From assembly GCF_039535475.1 (NCBI RefSeq), contig NZ_BAAAXG010000011.1, forward strand, positions 62,001 through 126,000: a stretch of 64,000 nucleotides of DNA, read 5' to 3'. Shown here one piece after another: positions 56,984 through 64,000 of the stretch. The DNA is from Streptomyces showdoensis (lineage in GTDB: Bacteria; Actinomycetota; Actinomycetes; Streptomycetales; Streptomycetaceae). Position 1 is the first letter of the stretch. Each line of letters begins with the position of its first letter. The notes below the pieces were generated by a model. The model saw nothing but the letters and a program-made list of their open reading frames with translations, was not told the origin of the DNA and made no database searches. The position numbers and the translations under genes were made by a program.

Positions 56984-57274
56984 GGGGGGGGTCCTTCTTT
57001 CACAGGGCAAGCGCTGTCGACGGTCTCCTACCCCGTACGCGCGGTACGGGAGGGACGGCCGCGGCGGACCCCGCGCCCACCACCCGGCGGCACTCACGCC
57101 ACGGCCGGGTGCCTTACTCGATCACGGCTCACGGCCGACCCGGCAGTCATACGCCCACGCTAACCCCTGCCGATCTTGGTCGGCAACGCGGTTTACGGCC
57201 ACGGTTCACGGCCACGGCGTAGCCTGGAAGTGGACTCGGGGTTCTCATGTTCCACCGCCGGGAGGCGGACGACG

Positions 57275-57646
57275 ATGACCGGAATCGTTTCCAGGAGCTT
57301 CGACTCCGCAGACGAGACCCGCCCCTTCGACGGGGGCATGGGCCGGCTGGACCTGCTCAACACGGACAAGGGCCAGGTCGGCAGGGCCGTGTTCGAACCC
57401 GGCTGGCAGTGGACCAAGCACGTGAAGCCGATCGCGGGCACCGACAGTTGTCAGGCGCACCACGTCGGCTACGTGGTCAGCGGGCGCATCAAGGTCGTCT
57501 CGGACGGCGGCGACAGCGCCGAACTGGGCCCCGGGGACTTCTACGAGATCCAGCCAGGACACGACGCCTGGGTGCTCGGCGACGAACCCTGCGTGGCACT
57601 GGACTGGGTCGGCTTCGGCGACTACGCCGTGCCGTCAGGTTCCTGA
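57275..57646 (+). CDS. Small cupin-domain protein
   Basis: 123-residue cupin. Motif 1 is reduced (AHHVGYVVSGRIKVVSDGG) and motif 2 reads DFYEIQPGHDAWVLGDEP, with fewer His ligands than metal-binding cupins. It may bind a ligand without metal. ATG 57275 has GGGAGG (57260-57265). TAGCCT at 57220 could be the -10 box. A 66-bp gap separates it from the convergent sulfatase. Function unknown. Confidence 0.85.
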   Translation: MTGIVSRSFDSADETRPFDGGMGRLDLLNTDKGQVGRAVFEPGWQWTKHVKPIAGTDSCQAHHVGYVVSGRIKVVSDGGDSAELGPGDFYEIQPGHDAWVLGDEPCVALDWVGFGDYAVPSGS

Positions 57647-57712
57647 CCCTCCAGGGCCCGGGAAGCCGCGGGGAGGGGCCGGAGGCCCGCGGGAGGTGCT
57701 CCGGCGGAGCGG

Positions 57713-59131
57713 TCACGCGTGCCCGAAGCGCACCCCCTCCCACGGCACCCGGCCGTGCGCGAAGGAGTCCGGGGAGCGCTGTTCGAGCGTGCGCGGCTGC
57801 GCCGCCTCGATCACCGGATCCGCCCCCTCCACCTCGCGCAGCCAGCAGGCGAGCGCGTCCCGCAGCCCGTCGGCCACCCGCCGGTGGGAGGTGAGGCCCG
57901 CCAGGTTCTCCAGCTCGTACGGATCGGCCGCCAGGTCGTAGAGCTCGCTCTCCCGGTAGCGGTCGGCGCCCGGCTGCCGCCAGGGATCCGGGCCGGGCGG
58001 GGCCGTCACCACGTACTTCCACCGCTCGGTGCGCACCGCCCGGCCGATCACGTCCTCGCTGATCTGCACGAACACCGAGTACGGCCGCTCGGGGTCGGTC
58101 CCGCCGCCCACCAGCGGGCGCAGCGACCGGCCCTGGACGCCCTCGGGGACCTTCAGGCCCGCCGCGTCGAGCAGCGTCGGCATCAGGTCCACCGTCGAGA
58201 CCGGGTGGCGGATCAGGCCGCCCCCGCGGAAGCCGGGCCCGGTGAGCGCGAACGGCACCCGGACCGAGGCCTCGTGCGCGGAGCGCTTGTACTCGCCGTT
58301 GCGCGTTCGGAAGTGCGAACCGTGGTCGGCGGTCCAGGCCAGCAGCGTGTCGTCCTCGATGCCCAGGCTGCGCAACGCGTCCCGCAGCCGGCCCACCCCC
58401 TCGTCGACCCGCTTGATCTGGCCCAGGTAGCCGCCGAGATGGCGGTGTGCGCCGCCCTGGGCGGCGCCGGGACTGAGCGCCGCCAGGTCCGGCGGCAGCC
58501 ACCGGCCCTCGTAGCGCTCCCGGTATCCGGCGGGCGCCGGGTAGTCGTCGGTGGCGTTCTGGTGGTGCGGCTCCAGGAGGGAGAGGAAGAGCAGGAACGG
58601 GCGCTCGTGGTGGTCGGCGACGAACCGGATCGCCGCGTCGACCAGGGCGTCCGAGCGGTAGCCCGGCAGCCGGACCGGTTCGCCCTCCTCGTCGTACACC
58701 ACCGTCCGGTACGCGTCGGAGGTGAACTCCAGCCGGTCCGAGGCGAGCCAGTGCTCGTAGCCGCCGCGCCGGCCGGGCGGGACCGGGCCGTCGGGGTTGT
58801 CCTCGCCCGCCAGGTGCCACTTGCCGATGTAGCCGGTGACATAGCCGGCCTCGGCGAAGGCCCCCGCGAGCGTGGGGAGTTCCGCTCCGAGCGGAAGTCC
58901 GTTGCGGAACACCCCGGTGGCCGTCGGATAGCGGCCCGTCTGCAGGGCGGCACGGGCGGGCGCGCACACCGGATTGGGCGTGACGGCCTGCTCGACCAGC
59001 GTGCCCTCGCGGGCCAGCCGGTCGAACTCCGGTGTCACCCCTGCGGGGTTGCCGTGCGCGCCCGTGGTGTCCCACCGCTGCTGGTCGGTGAGGACGACGA
59101 CGACGCTCGGCCGGGCGGCGGCGGGCGGCAT
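57713..59131 (-). CDS. Type I (formylglycine) sulfatase
   Basis: 472-residue cytosolic sulfatase hydrolysing sulfate esters. The activation motif is C56-A-P-A-R60 in PNPVCAPARAALQTGRYP; Cys56 would be oxidised to formylglycine. The metal site shows VVVVLTDQQRWDTTG at the N-terminus and WTADHGSHFRTRNGEYKRS further on, with HHQNATDDY and GKWH also typical. No signal peptide is visible. The start codon overlaps the TauD stop (TGATG), so the two are co-translated. With TauD this indicates release of sulfate or sulfite from organic sulfur compounds under sulfur limitation. Confidence 0.93.
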   Translation of the reverse strand: MPPAAARPSVVVVLTDQQRWDTTGAHGNPAGVTPEFDRLAREGTLVEQAVTPNPVCAPARAALQTGRYPTATGVFRNGLPLGAELPTLAGAFAEAGYVTGYIGKWHLAGEDNPDGPVPPGRRGGYEHWLASDRLEFTSDAYRTVVYDEEGEPVRLPGYRSDALVDAAIRFVADHHERPFLLFLSLLEPHHQNATDDYPAPAGYRERYEGRWLPPDLAALSPGAAQGGAHRHLGGYLGQIKRVDEGVGRLRDALRSLGIEDDTLLAWTADHGSHFRTRNGEYKRSAHEASVRVPFALTGPGFRGGGLIRHPVSTVDLMPTLLDAAGLKVPEGVQGRSLRPLVGGGTDPERPYSVFVQISEDVIGRAVRTERWKYVVTAPPGPDPWRQPGADRYRESELYDLAADPYELENLAGLTSHRRVADGLRDALACWLREVEGADPVIEAAQPRTLEQRSPDSFAHGRVPWEGVRFGHA

Positions 59132-60153
59132 CAGGCGGCGGGCTGCGCCGTGGAGGCGCCGGACGCGATGCCGAAGGCCGGGTCGGGCACGCCCTCGGGC
59201 GCGAGCAGCACCGAGGACCGCCCGTCGACGCCGACCGGCACGTCGCCGTCGATGGTCACCCGGCGCAGCTTGCGGTCGTGGGCGTCCGAGTCGTCCACGC
59301 CGTAGTGCTGGGTGGCGCGGTTGTCCCAGATGGCCACGTCGCCCACCTGCCACTGCCAGCGGACCGTGTTCTCCGGGCGCTCGACGTGGGACTGGAACAG
59401 GTCCACCAGGGCGCGCGAGTCGGCGCCGGTCAGGCCGCTGATGCGCTGCACGAAGTTGCCGAGCAGCAGGGTCCGCTCACCGGTCTCGGGGTGGACGCGC
59501 ACGACCGGGTGCTCGGTGAGGAACTTCGTCGAGGCGAACACCTCGCGGAAGCGGACCAGCTGCTCGGGCAGGGTGTCGGGGCGCAGGGCCGCGTAGTCGT
59601 AGTCGTTGGAGTGCACCGCCCGCAGCCCCTCGGCGAGGACCCGGAGCGGCTCGGGCAGCCGCTCGTACGCGGTGGCGGTGTTGGCCCACAGGGTGTTGCC
59701 GCCGTAGGGCGGGATGACCACGGCGCGCAGGATGGAGAAGGCCGGGTAGGCGGGGACGAAGGTGACGTCGGTGTGCCACTGGTTGGCCCGGCCGCCGTAG
59801 TCGGAGTCGATCGGGAAGGAGTAGCGGCCGTCGGCCGAGGGCACGGTGGGGTGGGCGACCGGCGTGCCGAGCAGGCGCCCGAAGGCCTCGTGCGCCTCCT
59901 CGTCCAGGTGGTCCTGGCCGCGGAAGAAGACGACCTTGTGCTCCAGGAGGGCCGCCCGGATCGCGGCGACGGTCTCCGGGGCGAGGTCGCCGCCGAGCCG
60001 CACGCCGGAGATGACGGCGCCGATCCGGCCGCCGACCTTCCGGACGGTGAGCGCGGTGGCCGCGTCGCCGGCCGCGGTCGTGTGCGCGGCGGTGTCGGTA
60101 GCCGGGGCGGTGTCGGTGGCCGAGGCGGTCGTGGGGGCGGTCGAGGTCGACAT
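59131..60153 (-). CDS. TauD/TfdA-family 2-oxoglutarate dioxygenase
   Basis: Fe(II)/2-oxoglutarate enzyme of 340 residues, probably splitting sulfonates (taurine) or alkyl sulfates to give sulfite or sulfate. The iron ligands are H127 and D129 in NQWHTDVTF, and the distal His is in ATQHYGVDD, followed by the 2-oxoglutarate Arg in [11 protein letters not shown]. The first 38 residues are an Ala/Thr-rich tail. ATG 60153 has AAGGGA 7 nt upstream. It is the first gene of an operon with the sulfatase. Coupling to an alkyl sulfatase favours an alkyl-sulfate or sulfonate substrate (inference). Confidence 0.92.
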
Positions 60154-60552
60154 GACGGATCCCTTCGGGACGGGGTGCGGAGTTAATTTCGCAGGGGAAG
60201 TAATGAGGGCGCCAGAGGGCGGACACCGGGAGACCGGCAGGCGCCACAGGTGCGCACCGGAGAGAGCCGGACGGTGCGGCGGGGCGATGTCCAGGACCAT
60301 CGCAGCGTTCCCGGCGGACCGTCAACGATCCACAGGCTCGGCGGAGATCGGCCCGTGGTGGTTGAATCGGCCTCCCCGCCGGCACCGGGCAGCCGCCCAC
60401 CGGACTTCGCCATACCCATGGTGACCAGGGCTTTTCCCGGTGCGGCGGGAGCCGGCGACCGGCACGGCGCGGCCACTCGCGGACGCCCGCGGCGGCGCCG
60501 GGGGATTTCACGCCCTCGCAATACTGAGCAGCACTCCCGAGACGAGGCCTTC
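60154..60552. promoter_or_regulatory. Divergent control region between TauD and ROK genes
   Basis: This 399-bp gap holds a possible minus-strand upstream ORF at 60257-60183 (24 residues, GTG start, two Cys codons including TGT, a rare TTA codon and a TAA stop) ending 29 nt before the TauD ATG. It could act as a leader, but it lacks the RRHVDL motif. No clear palindrome was seen. The ROK promoter lies on the right side. Confidence 0.35.
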
Positions 60553-61782
60553 ATGACCTTCACCCCCCACCCGCCCCGCATGGCCGGGGACGGCCGGCGC
60601 GAGGCCAACGCCGCCACCGTGCTGCGCACCGTCCTCGACCACGGTCCGGTCGCCCGCAGCGCCATCGCCCGGCTCTCCGGGCTCAGCCCCGCGGCCGTCT
60701 CCCGCCAGGCCACCGACCTGCTCGGGCACGGCCTGCTCCGCGAACTGCCCGAGCAGGGGGAGGGCGGGGGAGTGGGCCGCCCGCAGATCCCCGTCGATCT
60801 GCACCTCGGCGCCACCGGCGGCCCGGTGGCCGGCGGGGTCCATCTCGGCGTCCCCGCCTCCTCCTTCGGCCTGGTGGACCTGCGCGGCCGGCTGCTCGCC
60901 CGGCGCACCCTCAGCCACGACCGGGCCGACCCGCGCGTCCTGCCCGGCATCGTCGCCCGGGAGCTGCGGAGCTTCCTCGACGAGCACGTCGAAGGGCGCC
61001 CGCTGCTCGGCGTCGGCGCGGCCGTCGGCGGCTGGGTCGACCCCGACCGGGGACACGTCATGCGCCACGACGCGCTCGCCTGGTACCACCGGCCGCTGGG
61101 CGCGGAGCTCACCCGGGGTCTGGGCGGACGCACCGTACGGGTCGACAACCACGCGCGGGCGATCGCCCAGTCGGAGATCCTCTTCGGCCGCCCCGAGGCG
61201 CGCCGCAGCCTGGTCCACCTCTTCATCGGCAACGTGGTCGACGCCGCGCTCGGCATCGCCGGGGTCGTCCACCAGGGGCCCGGATCGGCCGCCGGCGACG
61301 TGGCCCACCTGCCCGTACCGGACTCCACCACGCCCTGCCCGTGCGGCCGTTCGGGCTGCCTGGAGGCGACCGCGTCCAACACCTGGGTCGCCGAGACGGC
61401 GTACCGCCGGGGGCTCGTGCCCGATCCGGACGTGTTCCTGGTGGTGGACGCGGCGGCGGCCGGCGACCGGCGCGCCGACCGGCTGCTGCGCGAACGGGCC
61501 CGGGCGGTGGGGCGGGCCGTCGCCCTGCTGCTCGACGTCCTCAACCCCGATCTGGTGGTGGTCACCGAGCAGGCCAGCGTCCTCAACCCCGACTACCTGG
61601 AGGAGATCCGGGGCGCCGCGGTGGACCTCTCGCACGTCTGCGACGATCCCGAACGGATCGTCAGTCCACATGCCGGACCCGCCACGTTGCCTGTCGCGGC
61701 GGGCACGGTTCTGCTGAATCCGCTGTTCAGGAACCCTCTTCAGGGCCTCGAGGGGCTGTCCGGGCGGGGGGTGCAAGGCTGA
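60553..61782 (+). CDS. ROK-family transcriptional regulator
   Basis: 409-residue NagC/XylR-type protein. An N-terminal winged helix (NAATVLRTVLDHGPVARSAI, then LSGLSPAAVSRQATDLLGHG) precedes a sugar-kinase-like domain. The zinc-binding ROK signature is PCPCGRSGCLEAT. The phosphate-binding loop is weaker than in true kinases, which fits a regulator. ATG 60553 follows GAGACGAGG. ROK regulators normally sense sugars or sugar phosphates; here it sits between sulfatase/TauD and an ABC binding-protein gene and may control either (inference). Confidence 0.9.
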   Translation: MTFTPHPPRMAGDGRREANAATVLRTVLDHGPVARSAIARLSGLSPAAVSRQATDLLGHGLLRELPEQGEGGGVGRPQIPVDLHLGATGGPVAGGVHLGVPASSFGLVDLRGRLLARRTLSHDRADPRVLPGIVARELRSFLDEHVEGRPLLGVGAAVGGWVDPDRGHVMRHDALAWYHRPLGAELTRGLGGRTVRVDNHARAIAQSEILFGRPEARRSLVHLFIGNVVDAALGIAGVVHQGPGSAAGDVAHLPVPDSTTPCPCGRSGCLEATASNTWVAETAYRRGLVPDPDVFLVVDAAAAGDRRADRLLRERARAVGRAVALLLDVLNPDLVVVTEQASVLNPDYLEEIRGAAVDLSHVCDDPERIVSPHAGPATLPVAAGTVLLNPLFRNPLQGLEGLSGRGVQG

Positions 61783-61810
61783 GTCATTCTCAGAATGCGG
61801 ACAAGCCCGG

Positions 61811-61840
61811 TTGACCCGGCCGCGAAGCCGCTGCCATATT
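61811..61840 (+). promoter_or_regulatory. Sigma-70-type promoter for the leader peptide
   Basis: TTGACC (61811-61816) and CATATT (61835-61840) are 18 bp apart. The expected transcript start is about 7 nt on, at the GTG codon 61847, so the leader would be leaderless. The consensus match is unusually good for this window. Confidence 0.65.
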
Positions 61841-61846
61841 GCTCCC

Positions 61847-61930
61847 GTGAATCCGGACATGCGCCTCATCTGCCGCAGGCACGTCGACCTCTGTCGACAG
61901 GCCAGCGCGGTCTGTGCCGTCCGCCTCTGA
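61847..61930 (+). CDS. Short leader peptide of the RRHVDL type (cysteine/sulfur-linked)
   Basis: A tiny ORF with the signature CRRHVDLCRQASAVC, the pattern of actinobacterial cis-acting leader peptides found upstream of sulfur-assimilation and transport genes. It has three Cys codons, two of them TGT, which is rare in DNA of this composition. The GTG at 61847 sits 6 nt past the -10 box CATATT; an in-frame ATG at 61859 (23 residues) is the alternative. The stop is 515 nt before the ABC substrate-binding protein. Likely role: slow translation at Cys codons under cysteine shortage alters the downstream RNA and relieves attenuation (inference from the family). Confidence 0.75.
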   Translation: MNPDMRLICRRHVDLCRQASAVCAVRL

Positions 61931-62065
61931 GCGGCCCGTTCCGCACCCTCCGCATTCCCCCGGGCTCCGGCCGACCGGACGCGTCGGGTTCGGCCCGCCG
62001 TCGCGTGCCCGCCGCTCGGCCTCCGGGCTTCGGCCGTCCCACGACCGCCGCGCCGCTCGTGGACC

Positions 62066-62105
62066 GGCCGCAACGGCGGCAACGGCCACAACGGCCGCAA
62101 CGGCC
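62066..62105 (+). repeat. 9-bp tandem repeat GGCCGCAAC, four units
   Basis: Units at 62066, 62075, 62084 and 62093 differ at single positions, and GGCC begins a fifth. They lie in the untranslated leader between the leader peptide and the ABC gene. Confidence 0.8.
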
Positions 62106-62176
62106 TTCGTTCCTGAGCGCGCCTTCTGGCGCTTCTCCTGATCGCTTCCCCTCGTTGCTTTCTCTGATCACCGCCC

Positions 62177-62300
62177 GGGGTCGATCCACGGGGTCGATCC
62201 ACCGGGTCGATCCAAGTGGTCGGCCCATCTGATCGGCCCACCTGATCGACCCACCCGATCGATCCACCTGATCGACCCACCCGATCCCGATCCCGATCCC
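62177..62300 (+). repeat. Degenerate 13-14-bp repeat array (GATCGACCCACC-like)
   Basis: About nine imperfect units such as GGGTCGATCCACC, GATCGGCCCACCT and GATCGACCCACCC end in three GATCCC hexamers. GATC and TCGATC elements make several local hairpins possible. It occupies the leader RNA about 150 nt before the ABC gene. No gene lies in 61931-62445. Confidence 0.8.
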
Positions 62301-62445
62301 TTTCCCGGTCCCCCTGTACCCGTCCCGGTCCCGAGTGCCCCTCCGCTGCCAGGGGTTTGTTTCTCCCGCAGCGGAAGTAATTCGGCGCCAGGGCCCATCC
62401 AGGTCCCGGGGATCTCTCTCCTTCCCACCCACAGGCAGGCACCCG

Positions 62446-64000
62446 ATGGCCGAGCTGTACCCCTCCACGCCCAGCACCCCCTCCCGTCGCACCACCCTGC
62501 GCGCCGCGGGCGGCGGAACCCTGCTCCTGGGGCTGGGTCTGGCCGGCTGCCGCTCGGCCGTCTCCGAGTCCGGCGCCACCGACCCGAAGGCCGCCGCCGG
62601 ACCGCGCCGGGGCGGCACGGTCACCGTCGCCGTCAACAGCGACTTCACCCCCAGTCTGCTCTTCTCCCAGAGCGGCCAGTCCCTCCAGCAGCGGCTGGTC
62701 TTCAACACCCTCACCCGCTACGACGACCGGCTCCGCCCGCAGCCCGAGCTCGCCACCTCCTGGGACTACGCCCCCGACGGCCGCAGCATCACCCTCAAGC
62801 TGCGCACCGGAGTGACCTTCCACGACGGCCGCCCCTTCACCGCCGACGACGTCGTCTTCGCCGTCAAGAACCTGCAGAACCCTCTCAGGGCCGCCCAGTT
62901 GAGAGCCACCGCCGCCGCCGTCACGGGCTTCGACAAGCGCGGCGACCACGAGCTGACCCTCCGCCTCGCCCACCCGGTCAACAACCTCTTCGACCTCTTC
63001 GAGTTCATGATCATCACCGACCGGAACAGCGTCGAGGACGCCGTCACCGGAAAGCGGCTCATCGGCACCGGACCCTTCAAGCTGGCCAAGTGGAGCCCCG
63101 GCACCGGCCTCAGCCTCACCCGCAACGAGACGTACTGGCAGCCCGGCCGCCCCTACCTCGACGGGGTCGAACTCCGCGTCATACCCCAGGCCGACGCCCT
63201 CATCTCCTCCCTGCGCACCGGCCAGTCCCAGCTCTCCTTCAACGTCCCCGGCAAGAGCCTCGCCATCGTCAAGAACAACCCCGACCTGACCGTCACCAGC
63301 TACGACACCGGCGCGGGCGCCTACTACCTCGGCGTCAACACCACCGTCGCCCCGCTCGACGACAAACTGGTCCGCCAGGCCCTCGCCTGGGCCGTCGACC
63401 GCGAGCGCCTCCTCAAGCAGGCCCTCGGCGGCTACGGCCTCGACTCCGCCGCGCCCTGGCCGAAGTCCTCGCCCGCGTTCACCGAGACCGGCCGCACCCA
63501 CTACACGTACGACCCCGGCAAGGCCCGCGAGCTGCTCAAGGCCGCCGGACACCCCAGGCTCCGGCTCCCGCTGCTCCACATCAGCCTGCCGGGCGACACC
63601 GCCCTCGCCGAGTCGATCCAGTACGACCTCAAGCAGGTCGGCGTCGACGTCACCCTCCAGCCCACCGACCCCGCCACCGCCCAGAAGAACCTGATCTCGC
63701 AGAACATGCCCGCCCTGTGGACCATGGGCCACGGCTTCGCGCAGGTCCAGCCCTCCACCCTCGCCGTCAGCGCGTACCCCTTCAACGAGGCCAAGAACAC
63801 CTCGAAGTTCCGCTCCGCCGCCTACACCCGCGTCGTCCGCGAGGCCTGGACCAGCCGCGCCACCGGCGCCGCCGCCAACGCCCAGCAGAGCCGGATCTCC
63901 GACATCCTGCTCGACGAGGCCTTCATCATCGACCTGGTCATCCGCGGCAACGTCCAGGTCGCCTCCACCACGCTGCACGGCGTCACCCTCAACAAGTTCT
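62446..64000 (+). CDS. ABC transporter substrate-binding lipoprotein (family 5, DppA/OppA-like), 3' end outside window
   Basis: At least 518 residues of a solute-binding protein for peptides, nickel or related compounds. N-terminal SRRTTLRAAGG with a hydrophobic run and the lipobox LGLAGC indicate an exported lipoprotein, possibly by the Tat route. The SBP_bac_5 core begins RRGGTVTVAVNSDFTPSLLF; LRTGVTFHDGRPFTADDVVF and LIGTGPFKLAKWSPGTGLSL are classic. ATG 62446 has only weak purine content upstream. Permease and ATPase genes are expected just beyond the window. The leader peptide upstream suggests that the ligand carries sulfur, for example glutathione, Cys peptides or a sulfonate adduct (inference). 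Confidence 0.92.
   Translation, partial: MAELYPSTPSTPSRRTTLRAAGGGTLLLGLGLAGCRSAVSESGATDPKAAAGPRRGGTVTVAVNSDFTPSLLFSQSGQSLQQRLVFNTLTRYDDRLRPQPELATSWDYAPDGRSITLKLRTGVTFHDGRPFTADDVVFAVKNLQNPLRAAQLRATAAAVTGFDKRGDHELTLRLAHPVNNLFDLFEFMIITDRNSVEDAVTGKRLIGTGPFKLAKWSPGTGLSLTRNETYWQPGRPYLDGVELRVIPQADALISSLRTGQSQLSFNVPGKSLAIVKNNPDLTVTSYDTGAGAYYLGVNTTVAPLDDKLVRQALAWAVDRERLLKQALGGYGLDSAAPWPKSSPAFTETGRTHYTYDPGKARELLKAAGHPRLRLPLLHISLPGDTALAESIQYDLKQVGVDVTLQPTDPATAQKNLISQNMPALWTMGHGFAQVQPSTLAVSAYPFNEAKNTSKFRSAAYTRVVREAWTSRATGAAANAQQSRISDILLDEAFIIDLVIRGNVQVASTTLHGVTLNKF

Follow-up and report, generated by a model that had tools for sequence, protein, structure and literature searches.

A candidate cysteine-responsive leader peptide with a conserved TGT codon ahead of a probable sulfate-ester import and hydrolysis operon in Streptomyces showdoensis

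The stretch of DNA analysed here (the window) comprises 64,000 nucleotides of the Streptomyces showdoensis genome. Towards its end, a regulator gene, a short open reading frame (ORF) and the first gene of an importer operon follow one another on the plus strand, next to a TauD-type gene and a sulfatase gene on the minus strand. The features of this region, in window coordinates, are as follows.

57713-59131, minus strand: sulfatase gene (PF00884, E=3.7e-52) with a Cys-type motif, CAPAR, read by eye
59131-60153, minus strand: TauD/TfdA-family dioxygenase gene (PF02668, E=5.7e-60)
60183-60203, no strand assigned: weaker copy of the palindrome listed below, 30 bp upstream of the TauD gene (score 23.3; 3 mismatches in a genome-wide pattern search)
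60553-61782, plus strand: ROK-family regulator gene (PF00480, E=1.7e-25)
61811-61816, plus strand: -35 element TTGACC (promoter search; seen by eye before 48/48 aligned leaders)
61835-61840, plus strand: -10 element CATATT with TG ahead of it (promoter search; the aligned leaders show CATATT or differ from it slightly)
61847-61930, plus strand: leader-peptide ORF, 27 aa, family NF042934, probably leaderless (profile score, aligned starts)
61892-61894, plus strand: Cys16 codon, TGT (in 48 leaders: TGT 43, TGC 1, Arg CGT 4)
61913-61915, plus strand: Cys23 codon, TGT, the conserved Cys of the family (TGT in 48/48 leaders)
61931-62445, plus strand: untranslated spacer, hypervariable save for the palindrome and the ribosome-binding site
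62360-62380, no strand assigned: 21-bp palindrome TTTCTCCCGCAGCGGAAGTAA, candidate ROK operator (matrix score 31.1)
62430-62439, plus strand: conserved CACAGGCAGG, ribosome-binding site of the importer (alignment of related loci)
62446-64000, plus strand, running past the end of the window: family-5 solute-binding lipoprotein gene (PF00496, E=7.5e-82)

Genes in the same direction continue beyond the window. They are given here in the coordinates of the extracted locus, L009, to which 54000 is added to obtain window coordinates; all lie in the operon direction.

L009 8446-10038: binding-protein gene (PF00496)
L009 10042 onward: first permease gene (PF00528)
L009 10993-11889: second permease gene (PF00528)
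L009 11886-13745: fused ATPase gene (PF00005/PF08352)
L009 13742-14689: FGE-type (formylglycine-generating enzyme) gene (PF03781)
L009 14686-17001: arylsulfatase gene (PF00884)

The frame of the first permease is broken at a run of seven C near L009 ~10700, through either a sequencing error or a true mutation, and a second ROK-like reading frame, seen by eye only, lies downstream of the operon on the minus strand (L009 18687-19937).

By eye, the N-terminus of the binding protein carries a twin Arg and a lipobox-like LAGC, the translated sulfatases both contain a CxPxR motif (CSPAR and CAPAR), and the FGE protein contains a CHDSYC stretch. We take the CxPxR of the sulfatases and the CHDSYC of the FGE protein to be features tied to formylglycine maturation. 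The arylsulfatase of the operon has no evident signal peptide at its N-terminus, and its nearest solved structures are bacterial arylsulfatases (7all, 1hdh). On the minus strand, the neighbouring TauD and sulfatase genes were recognised by their Pfam matches, as the initial annotation had read them. The best NCBIfam match of the TauD product is taurine dioxygenase, at 219 bits, below the cut-off of 313, and counterparts of the minus-strand sulfatase with 65-85% identity occur in 17 of 65 related loci.

The importer itself had been described as belonging to a type not usually tied to sulfur. That view was dropped, since the same-direction genes reach an FGE-type gene and an arylsulfatase gene beyond the window end. 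The glutathione importer GsiB, moreover, is itself a family-5 binding protein and turns up among the matches of the window's binding protein, although far below its cut-off: against the GsiB equivalog the protein scores 127.4 bits (cut-off 594), and the ATPase scores 558 bits against GsiA (cut-off 1077). With permeases, ATPase, FGE and arylsulfatase in line, and TauD and a further sulfatase nearby, the gene content points most likely to a sulfate-ester scavenging locus. The sulfatase half of the operon, the palindrome and the TGT rule described below had been missed because they lie outside the window or need comparison between loci.

The leader ORF begins with a GTG at 61847, six bases past the -10 element, and its stop codon ends at 61930. 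It encodes MNPDMRLICRRHVDLCRQASAVCAVRL, and its three Cys codons, two of them TGT as originally counted, were read as TGC at 61871, TGT at 61892 and TGT at 61913. The promoter proposed ahead of it, TTGACC and CATATT separated by 18 nt, was present and was the sole promoter-like match between 61780 and 62500 (shuffled sequences gave a mean of 0.0). Assignment of the RRHVDL ORF to an actinobacterial leader-peptide family was borne out by the NCBIfam profile NF042934 ('putative leader peptide'), which the 27-aa peptide passes at 28.3 bits (cut-off 27); when the whole genome was scanned with this profile, the same leader scored 26.6 bits, or 27.4 with in-frame neighbours. The 515-nt gap that follows does end at a family-5 binding-protein gene, with its ATG at 62446. 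GTG is the start codon in 46 of 48 aligned leaders, the other two having an in-frame GTG one codon earlier, and the six-base spacing between -10 element and GTG recurs in the sequences of related loci. In S. lividans the -10 element and the start site are 6.3 nt apart on average (PMC8079986), so this gap fits leaderless transcripts, and the transcript of the window's leader ORF probably starts at the GTG itself.

Scanning with the binding protein yielded 65 related loci, the window's own locus making 66. The initial annotation had proposed a search for RRHVDL-type ORFs upstream of such genes; a like ORF with the same promoter was found at 47/65 (48/66 with the window's own). Because the NF042934 score passes and the like ORF and promoter recur at these 47 loci, the leader ORF is not a chance ORF. 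One locus, L098, has no upstream sequence, leaving 64 assessable for the leader, of which 17 carry the importer operon with no leader in the available flank; the operon can thus do without one. One of these 17 is from Yinghuangia; the other 16 are of a Kitasatospora-like type, under the genus name Kitasatospora or Streptomyces, and in the Kitasatospora-like loci TauD and ROK mostly lie ahead of the importer, on its strand. The leader family is not absent from such genomes, since NF042934 leaders were present elsewhere in 16/16 searched genomes of the 17 leader-less loci (L073 was outside the set). Downstream, among 57 loci with >9 kb of sequence, an arylsulfatase was found in 53 and FGE in 24.

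The strict pattern used to find leaders fixes R10, H12, D14, R17, A21 and C23 by construction, whereas a looser pattern leaves R17, A21 and C23 free. As the strict pattern fixes most of the core residues, only codon choice and the unfixed positions count as evidence. By eye, R17, A21 and C23 were identical in all 42 leaders obtained with the looser pattern. Leaders with RWHVDL fall outside the first pattern, and the looser reading added five. Synonymous changes were seen among the 48 leaders at R17, H12, A21 and R10. Cys9 was ruled out as a cysteine sensor, with Cys at this position in just 3/48 leaders, the window's own included, and Ser in 38/48. At two loci a second leader-like ORF precedes TauD on the minus strand (L062 ~8000 and L085 ~7971), with TGTA and TGTC, respectively, at the conserved Cys.

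In the window's genome NF042934 gave 12 matches of at least 23 bits, nine of them above the cut-off. Eight of the 12 precede clear or probable sulfur genes, several of which score below curated NCBIfam cut-offs: a ThiS-family protein with cysteine synthase; a sulfatase; cysteine dioxygenase with a rhodanese-like protein (the latter by eye); a nitrite/sulfite reductase-type protein; an ABC ATPase with an alkanesulfonate-monooxygenase-like protein; a 3-mercaptopyruvate sulfurtransferase-like protein; an SsuA-like binding protein; and the family-5 importer of the window. The genes behind the remaining four are less clear as to sulfur: they encode a 2OG-Fe(II) oxygenase, an LLM monooxygenase, a GST-like protein and a flavin reductase. 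The profile was found in 60/60 genomes sampled from the order (own genome included) and in 76/98 sampled from the class; at a stricter E-value it was found in 6/119 genomes of the phylum, all six from the same class. A leader subtype, RRHIDLLRVCSA, has its Cys shifted forward (L020 1501-1551; L074 ~4317); in L020 the Cys codon is TGC, and the ORF ends soon after, followed by a GST-like gene.

The codon of the conserved family Cys was TGT at all 118 distinct places read (62 first loci, 40 further places, 15 later loci, and L016). In the first set it was TGT throughout the 62 loci, which represent 58 distinct segments and of which 52 come from the order and class searches. The 40 further places were picked from the class list after the rule had been seen, with their codons not looked at; two near contig starts (G072:C204 and G116:C151) were excluded and two others substituted. 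All 40 had TGT, and in all 40 the next base was C or T. The later reading gave TGT in 16/16 loci, 15 of them additional, since one coincides with a member of the 40; it took in four loci with truncated ends, which lie outside the first set, and the codon of L016 was read separately. Within the window's genome TGT was found in 11/11 leaders having the conserved Cys, the leader at L020, which is without it, being uncounted.

TGC is the commoner Cys codon, and background counts were correspondingly low in TGT: 2 of 48 Cys codons in 24 ORFs near the genome's leaders, 34/161 for the first set, and 46/392 in the regions of the 40 places, where the next base was C or T at 182/392; the ORFs behind the last two counts are mechanical picks (long, GC3-rich) and not annotated genes. 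Other Cys codons in the same leaders were TGT in 6/51 cases (40-place set) and 20/100 (first set). The binomial figure for the rule, 6e-38, overstates independence because the leaders are related by descent. Across the 58 segments, the residue-invariant positions R(-13), R(-6) and D(-9) use five, five and two codons; with codon choice this free for Arg and Asp, the constraint sits on the conserved Cys codon and not on the whole stretch. The next base is less strictly kept: in contrast to C or T at 40/40 places, it is G after TGT23 in 47/48 leaders of the family-5 importer operon, and the C/T rule is also broken in 5/58 first segments and 2/16 later loci. Where a Ser stands three codons upstream of the conserved Cys, it is encoded by AGC in 31/34 and 18/22 leaders (49/56), against a background of 680/2562.

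A local hairpin around the codon was considered and rejected, as the UGU was predicted unpaired at 0.61 vs 0.54 in shuffled sequences, with no added stability. tRNA-Cys, with anticodon GCA, decodes UGU by wobble pairing, and codon reading is weakened by a pyrimidine on the 3' side; the conserved Cys codon may be set to be the slowest, a wobble-read UGU in a weak context. Class-wide, the leaders would then combine one fixed UGU, usually followed by C or U, with an arrest-like peptide, R-x-[HA]-V-D-L-x-R, that sets the ribosome in place for this codon, so that hunger at a single site is amplified into a stall, making them a hybrid of hungry-codon attenuator and arrest peptide; we put this forward tentatively, at somewhat less than even odds. 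A third position that is always T, where TGC would be the commoner choice, offers a direct handle on the mechanism of these leaders. Should UGU prove necessary, the sensing of cysteine depends on how one codon is decoded; if UGU matters in some other way, an RNA-level reader of UGU, as yet unknown, must exist. A limited literature search found no mention of a fixed TGT codon or of this operon, and what is new here is the invariant TGT codon together with the palindrome between leader and importer.

How a stall at the leader would reach the importer depends on the spacer. It ranges over about 125-515 nt in 48 loci, some gene starts being extrapolated; because the window's 515 nt are the longest of the 48 and contain simple repeats, its length is not conserved. 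The repeats, of the GATCGACCCACC kind, lie at 62175-62300 (by eye). Apart from the palindrome and the CACAGGCAGG that precedes the importer start, the spacer does not align, and it is composed of 45% C and 27% G. No Rfam match was found up to E=1 in 57000-64000.

Cysteine sensing could have a translational read-out, in which the ribosome-binding site of the importer is masked by pairing with the leader and freed by a stall on the Cys codons. Poly-Cys leaders (L140, L142, L143) belong to the same NF042934 profile family, which speaks for such a link, and a CACAG upstream of the importer start is a possible pairing partner for CUGUG at Cys23. GACAG occurs within 200 nt downstream at 0.22 vs 0.10 in 58 family members, and ACAGG downstream in 14 leaders where 5.8 are expected, both of which may overlap ribosome-binding sites. 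Pairing of UGUY with its downstream complement RACA was set aside, the enrichment of RACA within 200 nt being only mild (0.59 vs 0.44). Folding of the 48 leaders predicted no consistent opening of the site: with a ribosome-sized mask at Cys23, openness rose by >0.05 in seven loci and fell in five, and its mean was 0.46 both free and stalled, although in the ~14 loci with an extrapolated gene start the site may have been missed. Together with a spacer whose sequence and length are not kept, this makes masking an unlikely read-out; it competes with the preferred reading over the read-out only, and its odds are not exclusive of those of cysteine sensing.

A second read-out would be classic transcription attenuation, with the spacer folding into an intrinsic terminator or an antiterminator. 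In the window, a T-rich tail does follow one terminator-like hairpin (stem 62337-62356; shuffled sequences gave a mean of 0.4), and 60-nt windows around the leader stop reached z < -2 in 28% of 40 loci vs 9% of coding controls. That hairpin was not seen to be conserved in the alignment, however, and no conserved intrinsic terminator was found in the 40 related loci or in 102 family members. From the leader stop to +180 nt, the windows of the 40 loci had mean z of -0.1 to -0.4 vs -0.3 for the coding control; in windows of the 102 family members no position was strongly structured; and T-tracts were hardly above expectation (0.22 vs 0.18). The missing Rfam match also counts against it. This read-out, too, seems unlikely, to about the same degree as masking, and again concerns only how cysteine sensing is read out.

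Termination of most transcripts in the spacer by Rho when cysteine is plentiful is given a chance just short of even; it is our preferred guess and not a result. C-over-G skew is high after the leader, but it lends Rho no specific support, because the region upstream of TauD, where a leader was found in only two loci, is nearly as high (0.175 vs 0.190).

The spacer also holds the 21-bp palindrome. Its consensus is TTCCTTCCGCWGCGGAAGGAA. Most loci that bear a leader have it upstream of the importer start, and many have a second, weaker copy ahead of TauD. A ROK match was found within 2.5 kb at 58 of the 65 related loci, and 46 of these 58 have at least one palindrome site (score at least 20). 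At that score the palindrome was absent from 5/5 assessable loci without ROK (L057, L082, L088, L089 and L097); at L044 it is present, and the contig ends before the ROK position. L065 and 11 Kitasatospora-like loci make up the 12 that have ROK but no site reaching this score, and weaker sites precede TauD in some of them. No site of score 20 was found elsewhere in the roughly 1.15 Mb of the 65 loci, and the window's own locus has an extra site, scoring 20.7, inside the sulfatase gene. Since 34 sites of these same loci went into the matrix, the importer-side matches are partly circular; the TauD copies, the ROK-less loci and the near-empty background escape this circularity. In a pattern search of the whole genome, 62360-62380 was the only place with 1 mismatch. 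Two further places had 2 mismatches (G000:C11:54089-54109 and G000:C27:419144-419164) and are possible further targets of a ROK protein. The 12-base core of the palindrome alone matched the window 10 times vs 8.6 expected, which is chance level.

The palindrome near the regulated genes thus tracks the ROK gene, and we infer from this co-occurrence that the ROK protein binds it. Because the palindrome lies ~500 bp past the presumed transcription start, a bound protein would be a roadblock, unless there is an unseen second promoter; by eye, nothing resembling one was conserved at the palindrome in the alignment of related loci. The ROK protein might even control the operon alone, with a constitutively translated leader adding only an effect on stability or translation start. 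The 17 of 64 assessable loci with the importer operon and no detected leader would suit this, several of them keeping the ROK gene and the palindrome. Yet the peptide and its Cys codons are kept over 48 loci while the spacer drifts, L057, L088 and L089 retain the leader with no ROK gene found nearby, and NF042934 leaders also precede other sulfur genes. Control by the ROK protein alone is accordingly judged improbable, clearly more so than either alternative read-out.

The reading we favour, with a probability of roughly 70%, is that the window's leader is a cysteine-responsive NF042934 switch on a sulfate-ester import and hydrolysis operon, with the ROK protein as a second gate. The promoter, the ORF and its recurrence, the family, the operon content, the invariant TGT and the co-occurrence of palindrome and ROK are all read from sequence, and a cysteine-responsive attenuation role is the best inference from them. 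A ribosome would start on the 5' GTG of the nascent transcript. Where Cys-tRNA is scarce, it would stall at the UGU codons of Cys16 and Cys23, the R-x-H-V-D-L-x-R-x-x-S-A peptide in the exit tunnel possibly strengthening the stall, and transcription would continue into the importer operon. With plentiful cysteine the ribosome would finish and leave, and most transcripts would stop in the C-rich untranslated spacer. The second gate, a ROK protein bound at the palindrome, would open once the ligand of that protein is present, and this ligand may be the ester that is imported. The ester would be taken in by binding protein, permeases and ATPase, and the arylsulfatase, matured by the co-encoded FGE, would release sulfate. 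The operon may thus be under a double lock of cysteine shortage and substrate presence, and its family-5 importer, FGE and arylsulfatase would be recognisable by leader and palindrome as serving sulfur scavenging.

Among known systems, the NF042934 leaders are closest. Like them, the window's ORF is short, directly follows a promoter, has the RRHVDL core and a final Cys, and stands before sulfur genes; it differs in that the genes behind it encode a family-5 importer, FGE and an arylsulfatase, that a palindrome lies between leader and importer, and that the spacer is long and variable. The importer resembles GsiABCD in its family-5 binding protein, two permeases, fused two-domain ATPase and relation to sulfur, but it scores far below the GsiA and GsiB cut-offs and its operon adds a sulfatase and FGE. 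In the ats cluster of Pseudomonas aeruginosa, the arylsulfatase AtsA is encoded with the importer AtsRBC and serves sulfur scavenging. The window's operon likewise encodes a sulfatase without an evident signal peptide together with its own importer, and 1hdh is among the structure matches; the importer of P. aeruginosa belongs to another family, and the operon described here has a leader peptide and ROK.

In the mycobacterial polycysteine leaders of Canestrari et al. 2020, a stall on Cys codons reportedly frees a masked ribosome-binding site. These leaders are described in PMC9031893, PMC13236596 and PMC9094748 as leaderless short ORFs with Cys codons ahead of sulfur genes, and the window's leader shares with them a probable leaderless start and Cys codons in a short ORF before such genes. 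It has no run of Cys, however, its Cys being at 9, 16 and 23 only; there are two conserved, spaced UGU codons, and folding gave no sign that the site is masked. The amino-acid leaders of S. lividans (trpL, leuL, ilvL and others; PMC8079986) are likewise short and mostly leaderless ORFs with regulatory codons, and their attenuators often have no U-tract. One of them, metL, carries three Cys, although its name refers to methionine (PMC8079986). The RRHVDL core was seen by eye in 0/8 leaders tabled in PMC8079986, and in further distinction from the S. lividans leaders as described there, the family of the window's leader also conserves residues other than the regulatory codons.
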